From NCBI RefSeq assembly GCF_001280565.1, contig NZ_LGRO01000001.1:1116001-1180000 (forward strand): a DNA stretch of 64,000 nt. Reading direction: 5' to 3'. Position 1 is the stretch's first letter; the number at the start of each line of letters is the position of its first letter. The translations under genes and the position numbers were made by a program. The notes beneath the pieces are model-generated. The model was not told the DNA's origin. It saw only the letters and a list, made by a program, of their open reading frames with translations, and searched no databases. Source of the stretch: Sulfobacillus thermosulfidooxidans (GTDB lineage: Bacteria > Bacillota > Sulfobacillia > Sulfobacillales > Sulfobacillaceae). Positions 43,792 to 52,974 of the stretch are shown in pieces.

Positions 43792-45231
43792 ATGCCAACT
43801 CGGCGTATAACCATTGTGCAACAAAACGATAGTCATGGGTATCTTTGGTCTCACCCCGAATTGTTTTGGACTGTCCCCTCTCCATCTTTTAAGCAAGGGA
43901 TTGGCGGATTTGCTAAAACAGCCCATATCGTACAGGAACTGAGAAAAAGAGAAAATGTATTGTTTGTTGATGGAGGAGATGTGTTTCACGGCACCGGACC
44001 CGTGGTTTTGAGTCAAGGAGCGATTGTTCCCCCGTTATTGAAAGCCATGGATATTGATGTCATGGTACCCGGGAATTGGGATTTTGCCTACGGCCCCGAA
44101 AAATTGTTGCAATTGATCCTTGAAAGTGATGTTCCGGCTTTGGCTTTGAATGTTCGTGACAGTCACGGCAATGGGTTCTTGCCGCCCTCTATGGTGATGG
44201 ATCTAGGTGACGTACGCCTAGGATTGATCGGGCTCACGTACAGTGAAGAAAGCCAAAGTATGCCGCAGAAGTTTTCGCAAGGATTAACTTTTGATCTCGA
44301 TATTCCACAGGTTTCACAAGCCGTGTCTCATCTTCGTGAAAACGAAAAAGCGGAGATTGTAATAGTCCTTAGCCACATGGGACTCCCAGCGGATCTGCAA
44401 CTTGCTCGGGACGTGCCCAACATTGACATTATCTTAAGTGCGCATAGTCATGATCGACTCCACCGGTTAATGAAAGTGAATGGTACGTTGGTTATGCAGT
44501 CGGGTGCTAATGGATCGTTTCTGGGGATTCTCTCTTTTACGGTGAATGCCCAGGGCCGGCTTGACGACATTGCGCATCAACTTTTGACGTTAGAGAATGT
44601 GGACGAGGATAAAAACATCGTCGATCTGCTCCAGCAGTTATTAGAACCTTATCAAGAATCTATGGCTGAACCGATTGGTCAATTGGGCACACCACTACAC
44701 CGCATGACCGTATTAGACGCGCCGATGGATGATGTGATTACGGATGCCTATCTGGCATATTCTGAAGCTGATGTTGCTTTTTCCCATGGTTGGCGATATG
44801 GAGCCCCCATCATTCCTGGGGTATTTACGCAAGGCGATCTTTACGGTATGCTGCCCACCAATCCTGAACTTTTTTCCACCGAGTTGGACGGGGCAACCTT
44901 ACATGACTTCTTAGAAAAAAATTTAGAAAATGTATTTGCCTCCAATCCGTTTCATCAAAAAGGTGGATATGTGGTAAGAAGTGCGGGGCTCATTATGGCC
45001 TTCCGCTCTTACAATCCTAAGGGGCACCGCATTGAATATTTAGCCGTCAACAACCAAGAAGTGAAAATGCGTAAGATCTATCGTGTGGTGTCGGCAGGAC
45101 CCCAAGGATTAAAGGGGATTGATGTCCCTCGGCATTCTTTAAATATTCAAGCTCACGATGTGGTTCGAGATTATTTTAAACGGCATAAGCCTGTAACGGT
45201 GTCAAATAGCCAGCGAGTGATAGCTCTCTAA
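43792..45231 (+). CDS. SoxB-like metallophosphatase/5'-nucleotidase-family protein without signal peptide
   Basis: The 479-residue protein has an N-terminal dinuclear metallophosphatase domain (QQNDSHGYL with D13 and H15, DGGD, PGNWDFAYG at 93-101, VLSHMG, SAHSHD with H218 and H220). A C-terminal 5'-nucleotidase domain follows (FSHGWRYGAPI, FTQGDLYGML, NPFHQKGGYVVRSAG). The usual GNHE motif is GNWD, and the residues after it (FAYG) match the GHWEFTYG of SoxB thiosulfohydrolases. NPFHQKGG resembles SoxB DPYYQQGG. SoxB acts in the periplasm on a SoxY-bound sulfur chain, but this protein has no Tat or Sec signal and no soxYZ or soxAX is near. It may be a cytoplasmic sulfatase-like or nucleotide enzyme. 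ATG follows GAGGTGAAAT. Confidence 0.75.
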   Translation: MPTRRITIVQQNDSHGYLWSHPELFWTVPSPSFKQGIGGFAKTAHIVQELRKRENVLFVDGGDVFHGTGPVVLSQGAIVPPLLKAMDIDVMVPGNWDFAYGPEKLLQLILESDVPALALNVRDSHGNGFLPPSMVMDLGDVRLGLIGLTYSEESQSMPQKFSQGLTFDLDIPQVSQAVSHLRENEKAEIVIVLSHMGLPADLQLARDVPNIDIILSAHSHDRLHRLMKVNGTLVMQSGANGSFLGILSFTVNAQGRLDDIAHQLLTLENVDEDKNIVDLLQQLLEPYQESMAEPIGQLGTPLHRMTVLDAPMDDVITDAYLAYSEADVAFSHGWRYGAPIIPGVFTQGDLYGMLPTNPELFSTELDGATLHDFLEKNLENVFASNPFHQKGGYVVRSAGLIMAFRSYNPKGHRIEYLAVNNQEVKMRKIYRVVSAGPQGLKGIDVPRHSLNIQAHDVVRDYFKRHKPVTVSNSQRVIAL

Positions 45232-45306: not shown

Positions 45307-45389
45307 AACACATCGATTTTTTATAATCGAAATAGCTTTAAATCTTTTCATATTTACATGTTATAATCCTGTTGAGGAGGATGAAAATT

Positions 45390-45719
45390 ATGAGTGCATT
45401 GCATGAATTTAAGGCGGAATTGTTCAGAACATTAGGGCATCCAATCCGCTTAAAAATTTTAGAACTCCTCCGGACAGGTGAAAAAACCGTTTCCGAAATA
45501 CAACACGATTTGAATATTGAAGCGTCTTCCGTGTCTCAACAGTTAGCCGTGATGCGTCGAGGCCAACTAGTGGATACGCGAAAAAGCGGTACGAACGTTT
45601 TTTATTCGGTAAGGGACCCGTTGATATTCGACCTGATGGATATCGCACGAAAAATCTTTGAAAACCAAGTCGCTAATATGAACTCTTTATTACATGAAGA
45701 GGAACGTGAACGGACCTAG
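45390..45719 (+). CDS. ArsR-type winged-helix regulator ahead of the hydrogenase-like operon
   Basis: The 109-residue ArsR/SmtB-fold protein has FRTLGHPIRLKILELLRTGEKTV, recognition helix EASSVSQQLAVMRRGQLV and wing TRKSGTNVFYSV. It contains no cysteine, so it is not a thiol or soft-metal sensor of the usual type. ATG 45390 follows GAGGAGG. TATAAT at 45362-45367 is a plausible -10 but no clear -35 is seen. The next gene, the first of the six-gene membrane complex, starts about 55 bases later in the same direction. It may be co-transcribed and autoregulate that operon. Confidence 0.85.
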   Translation: MSALHEFKAELFRTLGHPIRLKILELLRTGEKTVSEIQHDLNIEASSVSQQLAVMRRGQLVDTRKSGTNVFYSVRDPLIFDLMDIARKIFENQVANMNSLLHEEERERT

Positions 45720-45776
45720 GCTGCTGACGGATTATGATTCTTCCGTCAATAATCAACGAATGGGGTAGGGTCAGTG

Positions 45777-47660
45777 ATGCTAGTAGGGCTCGTGTTGAGT
45801 GGCATGATTTTGGCGTTATTGGCCCTCATGCGCCGGAGAACTTATGGATTCACTATTGTCTGGGGCATGACGATGGTGAGTGTTGCGGTTGCTGGTTTAT
45901 TCGTTCATATCGGAGACAATTTTTTGGCACTGAGCCCTTTACGGTCATGGTTTCTCATGATTTTAGGTCTAGGCGTTAGCTTCTCCTCATGGTACCGGAT
46001 TGGTTATGAGCCGGAACAAAGAGCGACGACCCACAACGGCAGCTTTTGGTTTGTGATGTTCGTAACCAGTATGATGACGGTGATAGTGGCTCAAAATGTT
46101 TGGTTGTTCATGACGTCATGGGAACTTATGACGGTAACTTCATTTTTCTTAGTCGTGTCTCATCCCGAACGGGAGGGTGTTATCCCGGCAGGTTTTGTTT
46201 ACCTGGTCATGTCTCAAGTGAGTGCATTGTGTATTCTCTTGGGCCTGCTACTCATGGGCCTTAACCTTCATTCGATGAATTTTAGTGATTGGTATCAGGG
46301 CGGGGTGAACCTGCCGCCTCACATCAAGTTGGAGATTTTTAGTCTGTTAGCGACCGGTTTTGCTATCAAGAGCGGGATTGTCCCTTTTCATATTTGGCTT
46401 CCCCGAGCACATCCGGTGGCTCCGGCTCCCGTATCTAGTTTGATGTCCGGCGTCATGATTAAACTGGGTGTTTTCGGGATTATCCAATTTGTTTTAATCG
46501 ATCTGGGACCCTTATACAAAGGAACCGCATTGGCCTTGTTAGCCTTTGGGGCAATCTCGGGTTTGTTAGGAGTTCTTTACGCCCTGATGGAACGTGATTT
46601 GAAAACATTCCTAGCCTATTCCAGTATTGAAAATATGGGCATCATTTTTTTGGGGTTAGGCACTATGGCACTCGGCATTGACACTCACCAGCCGCTATGG
46701 ATTAGCTTAGGACTGATTGCAAGTCTTCTTCATTCCCTTAATCACGCGATCTTCAAAACCCAATTGTTTTTGGCTGCAGGAGCAGTGGAAAAGCATACGC
46801 ACACATTGAATATGGATCATTTGGGCGGATTGCAGCGCACGATTCCTTTTATTGCTACCGGATTTTTGGTCGGAAGTTTGGCGATTAGTGGCATTCCGCC
46901 ATTTAATGGTTTCATCAGCGAATGGATGACGCTACGTGCCCTCTTGGAGATTACCCAATATCTCCGTGGGTTTACGGCTATCTTTTTTATGATCATGGCC
47001 TTCATCATGGTCCTTACGGCTAGCCTAGCCCTCTTAGGATTTGTTCAAGCGTTTGGCGTGACCTTCTTGGGACAAGCTCGTGCAAAACGAGCCCAATGTG
47101 AGGTGCCTCAGACCATGAGGTGGCCTATTGGCATTTTAGCCGGATTGGCTTTATTGATCGGAATTTACCCCAATCCCTTGTTTGGGATCATGGCCCGGAC
47201 CGATCCTCATGTCATTCTTGCCGTGCCATTTTCTGTCACCCGTTCTTTACACGCTCCGGTGATTGCAGGCATGCTGGCTCTCATTATCGGTGTACTCGTC
47301 GTCATCTCTCGCCCCTGGGATGTCACGATTAGACCCCGTTGGGCATGTGGGCGGGAGAGCAAACCATCTATGCAATGGACCTCGGCATCATTTACCAAAG
47401 CTGTAAGAACAACATTTGCCCTCATTTATCGTCCTCACCGGCGTCTAGAACGAATAGGTCTTTATGCCCGTGATTTTCCGGAAAAACTGGTGTACAAGGG
47501 CGGCACAACACCATTTTGGGAGCGTTATATTTATGGCCCCAGTTATCGGTGGGTTTGGATGATCAGTCGATATAGTACCAAGATTCAAGCAGGGCCAGTC
47601 CGCTTGTATCTGACCTATTTATTGGCCACTATTGGACTCATGTTATGGTTTGTTCATTAG
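45777..47660 (+). CDS. HyfB/NuoL-like proton-pumping membrane subunit
   Basis: This is a 627-residue polytopic protein of the NuoL/Mrp-antiporter family. The conserved channel segments are GFAIKSGIVPFHIWLPRAHPVAPAPVSSLMSGVMIKLG, DLKTFLAYSSIENMGII and HSLNHAIFKTQLFL. The region after about residue 480 is a more hydrophilic tail with further helices. ATG 45777 follows GGGGTAGGG; a GTG directly before it (45774) is also possible. It is the first gene of six that match subunits of hydrogenase-4 (Hyf) and related complexes. It would move protons or sodium. Confidence 0.9.
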   Translation: MLVGLVLSGMILALLALMRRRTYGFTIVWGMTMVSVAVAGLFVHIGDNFLALSPLRSWFLMILGLGVSFSSWYRIGYEPEQRATTHNGSFWFVMFVTSMMTVIVAQNVWLFMTSWELMTVTSFFLVVSHPEREGVIPAGFVYLVMSQVSALCILLGLLLMGLNLHSMNFSDWYQGGVNLPPHIKLEIFSLLATGFAIKSGIVPFHIWLPRAHPVAPAPVSSLMSGVMIKLGVFGIIQFVLIDLGPLYKGTALALLAFGAISGLLGVLYALMERDLKTFLAYSSIENMGIIFLGLGTMALGIDTHQPLWISLGLIASLLHSLNHAIFKTQLFLAAGAVEKHTHTLNMDHLGGLQRTIPFIATGFLVGSLAISGIPPFNGFISEWMTLRALLEITQYLRGFTAIFFMIMAFIMVLTASLALLGFVQAFGVTFLGQARAKRAQCEVPQTMRWPIGILAGLALLIGIYPNPLFGIMARTDPHVILAVPFSVTRSLHAPVIAGMLALIIGVLVVISRPWDVTIRPRWACGRESKPSMQWTSASFTKAVRTTFALIYRPHRRLERIGLYARDFPEKLVYKGGTTPFWERYIYGPSYRWVWMISRYSTKIQAGPVRLYLTYLLATIGLMLWFVH

Positions 47661-47701
47661 CATCTTCATGTTGTCTCACATTCCCCATTGAAGGTGATCA
47701 A

Positions 47702-48619
47702 ATGCTCTGGATTATTCAAATCGTGTCCGTTATGGCCATCATCGGCCTTGCACCCTTAATTTGGGGGATTGCCCAAAAGACAAAAGCCCATTTTCAGGGG
47801 CGTCAAGGACCTTCCTTGCTACAACCCTACCAGATATTTGCCAAAACGTGGAATAAAGAAACAGTCGTGCCCGAGGGTAGTTCGTGGGTTTTTCGGCTCA
47901 GTCCCAGTGTGAATGTTGCCACCCTAATTGTCATTGCCGCTTCCATTCCCTGGGCGGGTCAGGTTCCGACTAATTGGCCTCACAATGTGCTTAGCGTCTT
48001 TTTCCTATTAGGATTGGAGCGATTCAGTGTTGCTTTAGCGGGTCTCGATTCCGCAACCACATTCGGGGGACTCGGCGCAAGCCGGATTGCCACCATTGGC
48101 AGTGGTGTTGAGCCAGCGATGTTGGCCGCGTTTGGGGTACTGTGGGTTGTCAGTCGACATACACAAATTGAAACGGTAGCTCCGTTTTTTGCGAATGCTT
48201 CGCCATCAGGTTTTCTTCCTTGGGGACTCGCTGTATTGAGCTATCTGTTTATTGTGATTGCCGAAACAGGACGATTGCCAGTAGACAATCCGGATACGCA
48301 TCTTGAACTCACGATGATGCACGAAGCGACCCTTTTAGAGTATAGTGGGCGTTTATTGGCCCAGGAGCAACTGGCTATGGCGATGAAGTTTACCATCATT
48401 ATCGGGTTAGGTTGGGTCTGGTTAGGACCCGTTGGTCCATCCCCATGGGTGAATGTGCTCCTCCATGTGGCGGAAATAGGGAGTTCAGCTATGGTTCTTG
48501 CCTGGATGGAAAGCCGGTTTGTGAAATTACGGTATTTCCACTTGCCACGCTATTTTACCTTGGGCGCAGGAATTGGACTTCTCGGCTTTTATTTGGCAAT
48601 GTCTGGGGGAGTGCGATAA
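47702..48619 (+). CDS. HyfC/HycD/NuoH-like membrane subunit
   Basis: This 305-residue NuoH-type protein anchors the soluble arm. It has the loop ARGRQGPxxLQPYxxxxK-like segment (AHFQGRQGPSLLQPYQIFAKTWNKE) and the acidic AETGRLPVDNPDTHLELTMMHEA, both hallmarks of the family. Eight hydrophobic helices are seen. ATG 47702 follows AAGGTGATC and overlaps nothing. The frame is open to 47645 inside the previous gene. The AETGRLPxDNPxTHLELTM form is that of hydrogenase-4 and formate hydrogenlyase rather than of complex I. Confidence 0.9.
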   Translation: MLWIIQIVSVMAIIGLAPLIWGIAQKTKAHFQGRQGPSLLQPYQIFAKTWNKETVVPEGSSWVFRLSPSVNVATLIVIAASIPWAGQVPTNWPHNVLSVFFLLGLERFSVALAGLDSATTFGGLGASRIATIGSGVEPAMLAAFGVLWVVSRHTQIETVAPFFANASPSGFLPWGLAVLSYLFIVIAETGRLPVDNPDTHLELTMMHEATLLEYSGRLLAQEQLAMAMKFTIIIGLGWVWLGPVGPSPWVNVLLHVAEIGSSAMVLAWMESRFVKLRYFHLPRYFTLGAGIGLLGFYLAMSGGVR

Positions 48620-48622
48620 ATT

Positions 48623-49243
48623 ATGGATACCGCGGGATTTTTCGTGTTTTTGTCATCAGCTGGTCTCTTATGGTCTCGGAACCTTTCTTACGCATCCGTA
48701 TTTCTATTAACGGATGGCTTAGCGCTCACCGTAATGATGTTATTAGGCTCTTTAAGTGATGCTGATTTGGCTATTGCGGCTGCCACTTTGCTGATTAAAG
48801 CGATCATAATTCCCGGATCAATATGGCGCGTCGTGCAAAAGTGGCCTGCGGAATTTCGGCAAGATTCTCCCTTACCCCTCTGGGCTTATACCATTGCCGC
48901 TATTTTAGTATTAGGGGTCAATCATGTAATTCGCGTTTTAGCACCCACCCATCTCATCTTACACCGGACCTTATTCTTTTATGGGCTGGCGAGTATTCAC
49001 TTAAGCCTGTTAATGATTGTCAGCCGTCGTCATGTGTTGTCTCAGGTGACAGCCTTAATTGGTATAGAAAACGGCCTGGTCGTTCTAGCCTACTCGGTCG
49101 CCGGGTCTTTGCCCATTTTTATGGAATTAGGCATGTTGGGAGACTTGCTAGTGGCTGCTGCCATTCTCGTGTGGATGACTAGACGCATTCATCAACAGTT
49201 CAAGAGTACCGATGTGACAGCACTGGAGCGCTTAAGGGGGTAA
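48623..49243 (+). CDS. HyfE-like membrane subunit
   Basis: This is a hydrophobic 206-residue protein with about six helices. It lies between the HyfC and HyfF genes, where hyfE belongs. The segment VTALIGIENGLVVLAYSVAGSLPIFMELGMLGDLLVAA matches the NuoK-like part of HyfE (conserved Glu in the membrane). The ribosome site GGGGGAG lies about 11 bases before the ATG, which is four bases after the hyfC stop. It should be part of the ion-conducting arm. Confidence 0.83.
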   Translation: MDTAGFFVFLSSAGLLWSRNLSYASVFLLTDGLALTVMMLLGSLSDADLAIAAATLLIKAIIIPGSIWRVVQKWPAEFRQDSPLPLWAYTIAAILVLGVNHVIRVLAPTHLILHRTLFFYGLASIHLSLLMIVSRRHVLSQVTALIGIENGLVVLAYSVAGSLPIFMELGMLGDLLVAAAILVWMTRRIHQQFKSTDVTALERLRG

Positions 49244-49249
49244 CAAGCG

Positions 49250-50602
49250 ATGGAAGTTTTGGGGTTATTAGCTTTAGGACCGATTGGCGTGATCGTAGGG
49301 GTCATGTTGGAACGAACTTTAAAACGCCAGCAGACGACATATGTCATCGCCATATGGGTGACGTTGGTGTTGCTCTTCACCTTTTACAAGGAGTGGTCAT
49401 TTTTAGCAAAGGGTCATTGGCATTGGACGCCTATTTTGCTCGTAATGACGAATCTGATTGCCATGACAAGCGCATGGGATAGTATTATTTGGTTACATGA
49501 ACATCCGGAAATCCCTAGCCAACGCTATTATCTCGGGTGGGCATTGTTTTGGGCATCTCTCATCCTGATTGCCGGTTCTTCGAATTTAGCCGTGTCGTGG
49601 GTTGCTATCGAATTTTCCACACTGGCATCGGGTGCCTTAATCCTTCTGATGGGAAGTCATCAAGCCTTAGAAGCGGCATGGAAATATATCGTCATTGCCT
49701 CCGTTGGACTAGCTTTGGGATTAGTCGGCATTATCTTTTTGTATGCGGCGCTTCAGTTTCAAGATATGGGATGGACAACACTAAACTACATGAATCTCGC
49801 TCACCATTATCGTGCTATTCCTCCCATTGTTCGAACAGTGGCGACAATTCTCATTGTGAGTGGGATAGGTACCAAGGTAGGATTAGTACCATTTCATACA
49901 TGGCTACCGGATGCTCATTCCGAGGCACCTTCACCGGTAAGTGGATTGTTGTCGGGTGTTCTCTTGGGATTATGTTTGATCACGATCGAACGTTTCGTTA
50001 CGAGTATTATCCTGCCCGGTGGGACAGTCCTATCCGGATATCACTTGTTAACGCTATTTGGCGCTTTATCGATGATGGTTGGATCGCTTGCCTTACTGGT
50101 CCAACGTGATGTGAAACGGCTACTCGCCTACTCATCTCTAGAGCAAATGGGAATTGTTGCCGTGGCTTTGGGCATCGACACACCGCTTTCCCGTTACGCG
50201 GCGTTATTACAGCTTGTTTTTCATGCAGTAGTTAAATCGACCGTATTTTATGCGGGCGGACACTTGAGTGTGATCTACCACACCAAGGACTTGGATAAAC
50301 TGGTCAACATCCGACATACCCACAAAGCTCTTGTGATTCTTTGGGCTTTGGGAATTCTTGCGTTAGCGGGCATACCGCCATTGGGGCTGGCTTATAGTGA
50401 ATGGTTAATTCTGGCTGCGTTGTGGGATGGCCACATCGTGTTATTGCTGATCATGGCCCTATCCTTATTATTGACGTTTGTGGCGCTAATGTATCATTTA
50501 TTACGCCAATTATGGGGATCGCGCGATCTCTTTTTTCCCAAAGTTTCTCGCAATAATCCACTAGTCGAGGTCAAGGATGTAAAAGGGGACGTGATATTGT
50601 GA
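49250..50602 (+). CDS. HyfF/NuoN-like proton-pumping membrane subunit
   Basis: This second antiporter-like subunit (450 residues) has GTKVGLVPFHTWLPDAHSEAPSPVSGLLSG, RDVKRLLAYSSLEQMGIV and LVFHAVVKSTVFYAGG. The Lys and His residues in these segments are the family's ion-channel residues. ATG follows AAGGGGG. The stop overlaps the start of the large-subunit gene (GTGA). With HyfB, the complex has two antiporter-like subunits. Hydrogenase-4 has three and formate hydrogenlyase one. Confidence 0.9.
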   Translation: MEVLGLLALGPIGVIVGVMLERTLKRQQTTYVIAIWVTLVLLFTFYKEWSFLAKGHWHWTPILLVMTNLIAMTSAWDSIIWLHEHPEIPSQRYYLGWALFWASLILIAGSSNLAVSWVAIEFSTLASGALILLMGSHQALEAAWKYIVIASVGLALGLVGIIFLYAALQFQDMGWTTLNYMNLAHHYRAIPPIVRTVATILIVSGIGTKVGLVPFHTWLPDAHSEAPSPVSGLLSGVLLGLCLITIERFVTSIILPGGTVLSGYHLLTLFGALSMMVGSLALLVQRDVKRLLAYSSLEQMGIVAVALGIDTPLSRYAALLQLVFHAVVKSTVFYAGGHLSVIYHTKDLDKLVNIRHTHKALVILWALGILALAGIPPLGLAYSEWLILAALWDGHIVLLLIMALSLLLTFVALMYHLLRQLWGSRDLFFPKVSRNNPLVEVKDVKGDVIL

Positions 50603-52050
50603 ACACAATAAAGGTGAATCACTGGCGTCCTTTTAATCAGGAATGTAAACAAACCGGCAGCCAGCTTTTAGCGCTCACAGCCTTGAAAAACGGGACATTG
50701 ATAAGCCATTGGTTGCATCCCAATGGTCAGATACATGAAGGTTGGTTGCAGATTGATTCAGATGAATTTCCTTCGCTTACTCCCGTATTGCCGGAAGTGG
50801 CATGGGATGAGCGAGAAATTTATGACCTCTTCGGCTATTTTCCTCAAGGTCATTTGGACTTACGTCCTTTAGTGCGTACGCCTCGCTGGCCTGCGCAATT
50901 TTTTCCATTGGCTTCGGACAATCCCGAGAGTTCATGGAATGCTGTGGGCCCGGACAATCCCACAATTGAAGTTCAGGGCGACGGCATAACCATGATGGGT
51001 GTGGGACCCGTGCATGCCGGCATTATTGAGTCAGGGCGGTTTTTATTTAGTCTTATGGGCGAGAATGTGCTCCATGTAGATTTGCACCTTTTTCAAACTC
51101 ACCGTGGGGTGGAAGCACTTTTAGAGCATACCATGCTGTCACATGCTGCTACCGTGCTGTCGCGCATCTGCGGTGCTGATTCGGTTTCCCATCAAACCAA
51201 TTGGGCGATGGCGGTGGAACAAATGGCGGGCTTCGTAATGGATGAATCCCTTGCTTGGCGACGCATTATGTTGTTGGAATCGGAAAGAGTATTAAGTCAT
51301 CTCAATGATTTAGCACAAATTCCTGCCGGTGTTGGTTTTCAAGTGGCTCACCAACATGGGCTTGTCTTAAAAGAAATTTGGCAACAAGGAATGAAAGACG
51401 TGTTTGGTCACCGCCTATTGTTCGACACCGTTCAGCCAGGATTCGCTAAACAGGCTGATATTCCCACCGTTTTAGCGCTTGTCAATACCATCCAAAGATC
51501 ATGGGCACGTTGGCGCCAGATGGTGGAAAATCATCACGGATTTCAAGACCGTATGCAAAGCGTGGGAACCGTTACCGCGGAGGATGTATTGCGGTTAGGC
51601 GGAGCGGGTGTAATTGCTCGTGCGAGCGGCGTTCTCCTTGATGCCCGGTCGTTTATGCCGCTATATCGCGGAGTATCAATGGCTATACCGACCTACAGTT
51701 CTGGGGATGTGAGCGCGCGGTTCAGAATGCGACTGGATGAAGTCGAACAGTCTTGGAAAATTATTCAGCAAGCTGCTAAACATCTTGCGCCGATGCTTTC
51801 ATCTTCTGAGACACTGTGGACCATTCCTCCGGATCTATCAGGAGATGCCGTGACCTTTTCAGAATCCCCTCACGGCTTAAATTGTCATGTGGTTAGATTA
51901 GACAGAGGCCAAATTCGCCGTTATCATATCCGGTCGGGGGCTTTCCGTAATTGGCCCTTGCTAGCAAAAGCAGCAACAGGAAATGGCATCGCGGATTTTC
52001 CATTAATCAATAAGAGTTTTGAGCTTTGTTATAGCTGCAATGACCGATAG
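50599..52050 (+). CDS. HyfG/HycE-like fusion of NuoC and [NiFe]-hydrogenase-type large subunit, nickel site incomplete
   Basis: The NuoC-like part (about 1-130) has WDEREIYDLFGYFPQGHLDLRPL from residue 69. The NuoD/hydrogenase part follows (HRGVEALLEH, ERVLSHLNDL). The first nickel motif is RICGAD at 189-194: C191 is present but the fourth residue is Asp, where NiFe enzymes have Cys (RICGxC). The second motif CYSC (477-480) is present, but the usual DP before it is FEL. The protein ends at CNDR, the residue where HycE-type precursors are cut, so there is no C-terminal maturation tail. It resembles the energy-converting-hydrogenase-related (Ehr) proteins. GTG start overlaps the hyfF stop. Confidence 0.88.
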   Translation: MNTIKVNHWRPFNQECKQTGSQLLALTALKNGTLISHWLHPNGQIHEGWLQIDSDEFPSLTPVLPEVAWDEREIYDLFGYFPQGHLDLRPLVRTPRWPAQFFPLASDNPESSWNAVGPDNPTIEVQGDGITMMGVGPVHAGIIESGRFLFSLMGENVLHVDLHLFQTHRGVEALLEHTMLSHAATVLSRICGADSVSHQTNWAMAVEQMAGFVMDESLAWRRIMLLESERVLSHLNDLAQIPAGVGFQVAHQHGLVLKEIWQQGMKDVFGHRLLFDTVQPGFAKQADIPTVLALVNTIQRSWARWRQMVENHHGFQDRMQSVGTVTAEDVLRLGGAGVIARASGVLLDARSFMPLYRGVSMAIPTYSSGDVSARFRMRLDEVEQSWKIIQQAAKHLAPMLSSSETLWTIPPDLSGDAVTFSESPHGLNCHVVRLDRGQIRRYHIRSGAFRNWPLLAKAATGNGIADFPLINKSFELCYSCNDR

Positions 52051-52060
52051 GAGATGGCAG

Positions 52061-52474
52061 ATGAATCCCATGTGGAGAACATTACAAGCGCGGCATGTGG
52101 ATGCTGGCAGTTGCAATGGATGTGAACAGGAATTAACCCACTTAAGTAATCGCGTCTATGATTTTCAACATCTAGGATTGGACATTGTGGCCTCGCCGCG
52201 ACAAGCCGATACGCTAATCGTCACGGGCCCTGTTAACGACACGATGTATCTTGCTCTGCACACCGTGTGGGAAGCTGTTCCATCCCCTAAATGGCTTGTG
52301 GCCATCGGGGATTGTGCGGCAGGTTGTGGCGTGTTTCAATCAGCATATGCAAGTCATGGCGGCGTAGCAAAAGCCCTAAGAACGCCTGATGTGGTCGTTA
52401 AAGGCTGTCCTCCCGAACCACGACAGATTTTGGATGCACTAAATCAACTCCGCCACAAGGCTTCGGGGAATTGA
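52061..52474 (+). CDS. HyfI/HycG/NuoB-like [4Fe-4S] small subunit
   Basis: This 137-residue protein has the proximal-cluster ligands C18 and C21 (GSCNGCEQE), C85 (GDCAAGCG) and C116 (KGCPPEP). These are the positions of the N2/proximal cluster in NuoB and group-4 hydrogenases. It would pass electrons between the large subunit and a partner. ATG 52061 follows TAGGAG by eight bases, after the large-subunit stop. It ends the operon; no HyfA- or HyfH-type ferredoxin gene follows, so the electron donor must be soluble or encoded elsewhere. Confidence 0.9.
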   Translation: MNPMWRTLQARHVDAGSCNGCEQELTHLSNRVYDFQHLGLDIVASPRQADTLIVTGPVNDTMYLALHTVWEAVPSPKWLVAIGDCAAGCGVFQSAYASHGGVAKALRTPDVVVKGCPPEPRQILDALNQLRHKASGN

Positions 52475-52536: not shown

Positions 52537-52974
52537 TTACGTCCATAGTGCAAAGGGAATATTTGATAAACTTTTTTTCTGTTTAAGATCCCGGATTCCC
52601 TGAGCGCAGACGCCATAAGGTCGCCATGGGCAACTCGCGCACCACCGATCGATATCCTCGGGATTGAGACGTTCGATGATGCGGGCTTCAATGTCACCCC
52701 AGGGAATCTCTTGCCCAGACACAAGGCTTAACGACTCGGCAACGCGCTGATCGCGTTCGAACACGTTACAATCCTCGCAGTGATATTCTTGCGATAAGGG
52801 AAACTTGCAGCAGAGGTCATCAGGACCATCTACTAATACTATGGGAGTGGTGGGAGCAGTACGCAGGCATTGATGAATCGCTGTCATATTTCTGACAAAT
52901 TCTTCAGAATAGCCTTTGCCTCGGTAACCTAACAAACAAAGAATATGATGTCCTCGTAACCGAATAGCAGCCAA
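52537..52974 (-). CDS. DUF1284 (iron-sulfur-type) protein
   Basis: The 145-residue protein starts IRLRGHHILCLLGYRGKGYS, the hallmark of DUF1284. Cysteines are CLRTA, DDLCCKF, YHCEDCNVF and WCASCPWRPYGVC. CxxC pairs of this kind suggest a metal or Fe-S site. Function is not known. The TTG start at 52974 has no strong ribosome site (TGATGGATA). It is convergent with the hydrogenase-like operon; no terminator is clear between them. Confidence 0.85.
   Translation of the reverse strand: MAAIRLRGHHILCLLGYRGKGYSEEFVRNMTAIHQCLRTAPTTPIVLVDGPDDLCCKFPLSQEYHCEDCNVFERDQRVAESLSLVSGQEIPWGDIEARIIERLNPEDIDRWCASCPWRPYGVCAQGIRDLKQKKSLSNIPFALWT

Follow-up and report, generated by a model that had tools for sequence, protein, structure and literature searches.

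It has long been asked how other active sites, such as the one where complex I binds quinone, arose from the nickel–iron pocket of hydrogenases. The question is raised in a particular form by an operon of the acidophile Sulfobacillus thermosulfidooxidans whose hydrogenase-like large subunit retains three of the four nickel cysteines: what might such a pocket hold, and which reaction could it serve? We analysed the operon within a window of 64,000 nucleotides (NCBI RefSeq assembly GCF_001280565.1, contig NZ_LGRO01000001.1, positions 1,116,001 to 1,180,000, forward strand) from a 3.83 Mb genome of the Sulfobacillus family; coordinates below are those of the window.

A six-gene operon and its large subunit

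The operon is formed by six genes on the + strand (45774–52474) whose NCBIfam and Pfam profiles give the order HyfB-C-E-F-G-I with two Proton_antipo_M subunits, as an earlier note on this DNA, made from the sequence alone, had described. The HyfB-like antiporter-type subunit (628 aa; 45774–47660, +) scores 490 bits, short of the cut-off of 667, against NF005086 (hydrogenase 4 subunit B) and has conserved Lys, Glu and His residues; its HyfF-like counterpart (450 aa; 49250–50602, +) matches hydrogenase 4 subunit F models and conserves Glu121, Glu141, Lys145, Lys209 and Lys329. Between them lie a HyfC/NuoH-like membrane subunit with conserved Glu, Asp and Arg residues (listed as 47645–48619, +, with a true start that may be at 47702; PF00146 NADHdh, E 9e-33) and a HyfE-like membrane subunit (48623–49243, +; a match at E 3e-15 that stays under the cut-off of NF008556, hydrogenase 4 membrane subunit). 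The HyfG/HycE-like large subunit, a NuoC+NuoD fusion, is followed by a HyfI/NuoB-like small subunit (52019–52474, +; PF01058, E 1e-24), the true start of which may lie at 52040–52070; its four proximal-cluster cysteines (C32, C35, C99 and C130, ORF numbering) are all invariant in the clade defined below. Profile annotation of the operon finds no HyfA-, HyfH- or HyfD-like gene and neither an NADH module (NuoEFG) nor NuoI; nuo genes form a cluster of their own elsewhere in the genome (L124).

Directly upstream is an ArsR-family regulator without cysteines (45390–45719, +; NF033788 over cut-off, HTH_5), which probably starts at the ATG at 45390, its ORF being listed from a TTG at 45372. An ArsR gene holds this position in 18 of the 19 clade loci with sufficient upstream sequence (the exception is L046), and the encoded regulators share 66–79% identity. 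The flanking genes encode a SoxB-like/5'-nucleotidase-family protein just upstream of the operon (43792–45231, +; TIGR04486 281 bits, below the cut-off of 550) and, directly downstream on the opposite strand, a DUF1284 protein with several cysteines (52537–52974, −). Nine neighbour genes in the wider family, sought as electron partners, belong only to unrelated families or to no family.

The large subunit (483 aa, GTG start; 50599–52050, +) was assigned from its sequence, an alignment and an AlphaFold2 model (mean pLDDT 93). Among solved structures, sequence and fold both bring it closest to HycE, from the formate hydrogenlyase of E. coli (Foldseek TM 0.93; VIA-align against 7z0s_E, Z 45.4, 477 residues at rmsd 1.9). 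Aligned with HycE, C191 corresponds to C241, C477 to C531 and C480 to C534, and D194 stands in place of C244; the L1 nickel motif therefore reads RICGAD (residues 189–194; 51163–51180, +) where RxCGxC is expected, and the ORF, its start and this motif are as the earlier note gave them. The four-cysteine ligand set of a group 4 [NiFe] hydrogenase (RxCGxC, (D/E)(P/L)CxxC) is thus incomplete. In [NiFe] enzymes the second cysteine in either motif serves as a bridge between Ni and Fe, so that with the second L1 cysteine replaced by D194 a bridging ligand is lost. The L2 motif, CYSCNDR (residues 477–483; 52027–52047, +), coincides with the C-terminus of the protein, LCYSCNDR. Of the residues that the FHL structure paper assigns to the HycE canopy (PMC9474812), R478 is replaced by H425 (codon 51871–51873, +) and D529 by E475, with S283 kept as S233. 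The HycE proton path is kept in the alignment (E193 as E144, H284 as H234, R395 as R341 and E437 as E381).

A pocket fixed in one clade

Relatives were collected from whole genomes and GTDB contigs. The window protein and its 30 nearest relatives make up a clade of 31 distinct sequences, all with C-[G/A]-x-D, which we compared with 54 four-cysteine relatives (46 CGxC and 8 CAxC) and 13 zero-cysteine sequences. Position 194 is Asp in 31/31 clade members and in 0/54 four-cysteine relatives, all of which have Cys; the suggestion that Asp might be common in active enzymes is answered in the negative by this comparison. The canopy position switches in step, with His at 425 throughout the clade (31/31) and Arg in 54/54 four-cysteine relatives. 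A sequencing or frame error at D194 was considered and is ruled out by the Asp fixed in 30 relatives. C191, C477 and C480 are invariant across the clade, leaving the L2 CxxC intact. The median pairwise identity is 58%, and the five residues of interest are all among the 130 invariant positions out of 483; conservation alone is nonetheless no proof of catalysis, given that 111 of 359 core positions (~31%) are invariant. In the zero-cysteine Ehr group the L1 positions and the position of R478 vary freely. The window genome encodes one such protein in a second Hyf/Nuo-like operon (L121, 6198–13324 of G000:C2), which has a different gene order, with an antiporter-type gene last, and a large subunit ending LSVAGWDQ.

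A maximum-likelihood tree, built by a quick method and with a few long branches that leave fine detail uncertain, gathers the clade in a single branch (100% SH-aLRT). Closest to it stand the CAxC sequences plus L077 (99%), and zero-cysteine Ehr is the next sister (98%), to the clade together with these CAxC relatives; CGxC sequences are basal, and E. coli HycE and HyfG fall outside. Read most simply, the tree suggests that the Cys-to-Asp substitution arose once and has been held since. We found no earlier notice of the Asp variant in the open-access literature.

Other oddities of the locus are shared more widely. In HycE and HyfG of E. coli, CYSCTDR is followed by a tail of 32 residues, and the window protein ends at exactly that point, the mature HycE end; the tail is equally absent in all 46 CGxC and 8 CAxC relatives, which end in CYxCxDR (one in CTDL) and all have ELC for DPC at L2. 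The six-gene operon without ferredoxin subunits likewise recurs in Firmicutes, Chloroflexi and others. Because the wider family has them, neither the tail trait nor the lack of HyfA and HyfH is specific to this protein. The earlier note was thus right that both are missing, the former with its corollary that no maturation endopeptidase would be needed, but their diagnostic value falls away: a missing tail is ruled out as a sign of an altered enzyme by four-cysteine relatives that are equally tail-less, and missing HyfA/HyfH as a specific trait by four-cysteine relatives with the same operon content. This tail-less four-cysteine family, which is probably HydDB group 4f (the link comes from PMC10284858 and PMC9888536), shares with our operon the same six genes, the ending NKSFELCYxCxDR and the L2 motif ELCxxC, and differs in having CGxC or CAxC in L1 with a canopy Arg where we find Asp and His. 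E. coli hydrogenase-4 and -3 (HyfG and HycE; group 4a) resemble it in fold, gene order, subunit types and mature C-terminus; unlike it they have four cysteines, DPCxxC, the tail, HyfA/HyfH/HyfD, a protease and hyp genes. In one Sporomusaceae MAG (L074), two HyfB-C-E-F-G-I operons stand in tandem with an ArsR-like gene.

Maturation genes in carriers and relatives

Nine carrier genomes, 89–99% complete (G001, G010, G017, G021, G022, G023, G024, G025 and G026), have no hypD, hypE or hypF over cut-off and no true PF00374 hydrogenase. Left out of this list were L107 (hypE present), L093 (another hydrogenase) and two genomes scored negative for hypD/E/F (G019 and G032), whose assemblies may not include their hyp genes; the latter hold a true group 3-like hydrogenase (L142 and L143; RICGIC, DPCISCSTH) beside hypA/hypB-like genes, with no hypD, hypE or hypF. 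In the hypD-positive carriers of the set (G000, G003, G004, G008 and G011), every hypD lies ~8 kb or less from another hydrogenase. The window genome does have hyp genes, which the earlier note proposed to look for, but its two sets each sit inside one of two other hydrogenase clusters. The surroundings of the operon, surveyed over loci totalling about 1.2 Mb, contain neither a hyp gene nor a gene for a maturation protease.

The nearest four-cysteine relatives (L058–L062, L097, L077 and L075, the last from Alicyclobacillus sp. SP_1) are also without hypD, hypF and over-cut-off hypE; most are MAGs, in which single absences are weak, and all of them agree. Their sole PF00374 matches are short, N-terminal and of Nuo/Hyf type. 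Basal CGxC members are mixed, with hypD in 18 tested genomes and no hypD, hypE or hypF in L065, L066, L080, L084 and L100. The assumption that four-cysteine relatives are proven hydrogenases was dropped, 6 of the 8 CAxC genomes plus L075 and L077 being without hypD/E/F, and a group-4-like protein cannot be taken for a hydrogenase on its four cysteines alone. As the nearest four-cysteine relatives also lack hyp genes, Hyp-independence is probably older than the Cys-to-Asp change: before one Cys gave way to Asp, a four-cysteine site apparently survived in the absence of the Fe(CN)2CO pathway, and the sites of these eight relatives are possibly without NiFe cofactor. One tree thereby holds an ordered series, from four cysteines with hyp, through four cysteines without hyp, to Cys3-Asp-His, with a zero-cysteine sister branch.

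Taken with the loss of both a bridging Cys and the canopy Arg, the nine Hyp-less carriers and the placement of hyp genes in other clusters make H2 catalysis by the complex very unlikely. This agrees with the earlier note, which had doubted an H2 enzyme from the altered nickel site; the matching switch from canopy Arg to His425, the hypD/E/F absence in many carriers and the zero-cysteine Ehr operon go beyond it.

A candidate non-H2 complex

The complex is best read as an ion pump of the Ehr-like type in which the pocket, remodelled to Cys3-Asp-His, lies beside one [4Fe-4S] cluster. We consider it likely that the six subunits form an energy-converting membrane complex related to hydrogenases, that this complex makes no use of H2 and that its pocket has a different, Hyp-independent centre. 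A different, non-H2 reaction is probable because the site has been rebuilt with Asp and His and is found in relatives unable to make the NiFe cofactor. The centre would be a single metal ion or cluster on Cys3-Asp with His425 nearby or, less likely, the pocket would be without any metal. Electrons would pass between the pocket and the single [4Fe-4S] cluster of HyfI, a soluble carrier able to dock in the absence of HyfA/HyfH would supply or accept them, and their transfer would drive ions through HyfB and HyfF; the ion pump suggested by the earlier note is supported as a reading by these antiporter-type subunits with their conserved Lys and Glu. The strict conservation of the clade pocket, set against drift at the same positions in zero-cysteine Ehr, speaks for this reading. 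The hyp genes of the window genome count against it, cofactor delivery there being compatible with genome content. We would put forward only tentatively the fuller proposal that the complex I superfamily has here a new type of metal centre, built on Cys3-Asp with a His nearby and without Hyp, derived from a Hyp-independent four-cysteine site and serving a pumping-coupled non-H2 reaction.

An active [NiFe] hydrogenase with Asp in place of a bridging Cys could draw on the HycE fold, the three remaining ligands, the kept proton path and the hyp genes of the window genome; we give it very little credence, since a bridging ligand and the canopy Arg are both lost, nine carriers are without hypD/E/F and the hyp genes of carriers track other hydrogenases. 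The converse view is that the pocket is vestigial, its cysteines structural or in a disulfide, in a cofactor-free Ehr pump heading to the zero-cysteine state. It gains from the zero-cysteine Ehr complex in the same genome, from the position of its zero-cysteine group as sister to the clade plus its CAxC relatives, and from the sulfane sulfur reductase MBS of Pyrococcus furiosus, which keeps two of the four nickel cysteines and in which their mutation left activity unaffected (PMC7684303). We nevertheless judge it unlikely: three Cys, Asp and His stay invariant in 31 diverged sequences, it is the zero-cysteine group whose positions drift as vestigial positions would, and the clade is sister to four-cysteine sequences, not nested in that group.

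MBS, which derives from a hydrogenase and has lost part of its nickel cysteines, is also a structural precedent (PMC7684303), so that retaining three of four cysteines sets our protein apart from zero-cysteine Ehr, as the earlier note held, without making it unique. A sulfur- or polysulfide-active complex working like MBS would fit a sulfur-oxidising host lineage (PMC4378227), and the SoxB-like gene lies just upstream. Yet MBS relies on a shortened proximal-cluster loop in MbsJ that frees one iron, and HyfI, judged from its sequence, keeps the hydrogenase-type spacing C32-x2-C35 with C99 and C130; the proton-path glutamate (E21-type), kept here as E144, is absent in MBS, and the extra FeS subunit of MBS (MbsN/ferredoxin type) has no counterpart in the operon (PMC7684303). 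Since the SoxB-like gene also misses the SoxB cut-off and no counterpart was found next to the operon of the relatives, such a function appears improbable. A minimal complex I-like quinone oxidoreductase seems more improbable still. Homology to complex I is plain in the highly similar fold, the NuoC–NuoD fusion, the NuoH- and antiporter-type membrane subunits and the conserved acidic residues. However, the quinone His of NuoD (Nqo4 H38) aligns with I143 and the complex I Tyr after RxD with G192, so both are absent at the aligned positions, and the quinone-linked pump that the earlier note had entertained is not favoured. The proximal motif is CxxC where complex I has CC, the operon has no NADH or FeS input module, and the genome has its own complex I cluster.

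The Ehr-like reading connects the locus to earlier work. Ehr is said, after Marreiros 2013, to denote energy-converting hydrogenase-related complexes. Justice et al. 2014 described group-4-like clusters of six syntenic genes in all Sulfobacillus, without nickel motifs, and compared them to Ehr, a group without an assigned function; the portion of their text drawn on here does not separate the three-Cys-Asp type from the zero-cysteine type (PMC4378227). Later papers define Ehr by absent ligands (PMC6349859, PMC10284858). Our operon is like Ehr in its Hyf/Nuo-like make-up, incomplete nickel ligands, antiporter-type subunits and lack of an expected H2 role, and unlike canonical Ehr, which is without both CxxC, in its invariant L2 CxxC and first L1 cysteine and its fixed Asp and His. 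On this comparison of sequences, the three-Cys-Asp-His pocket is a variant of Ehr/group-4-like complexes distinct from the zero-cysteine type. In Geobacter, Ehr subunits, which may or may not stand close to this branch, rise on formate (PMC7894505). Cultured Sulfobacillus species carry the complex, so the intermediate is open to testing; the large subunit of S. thermotolerans is 56% identical to that of the window.
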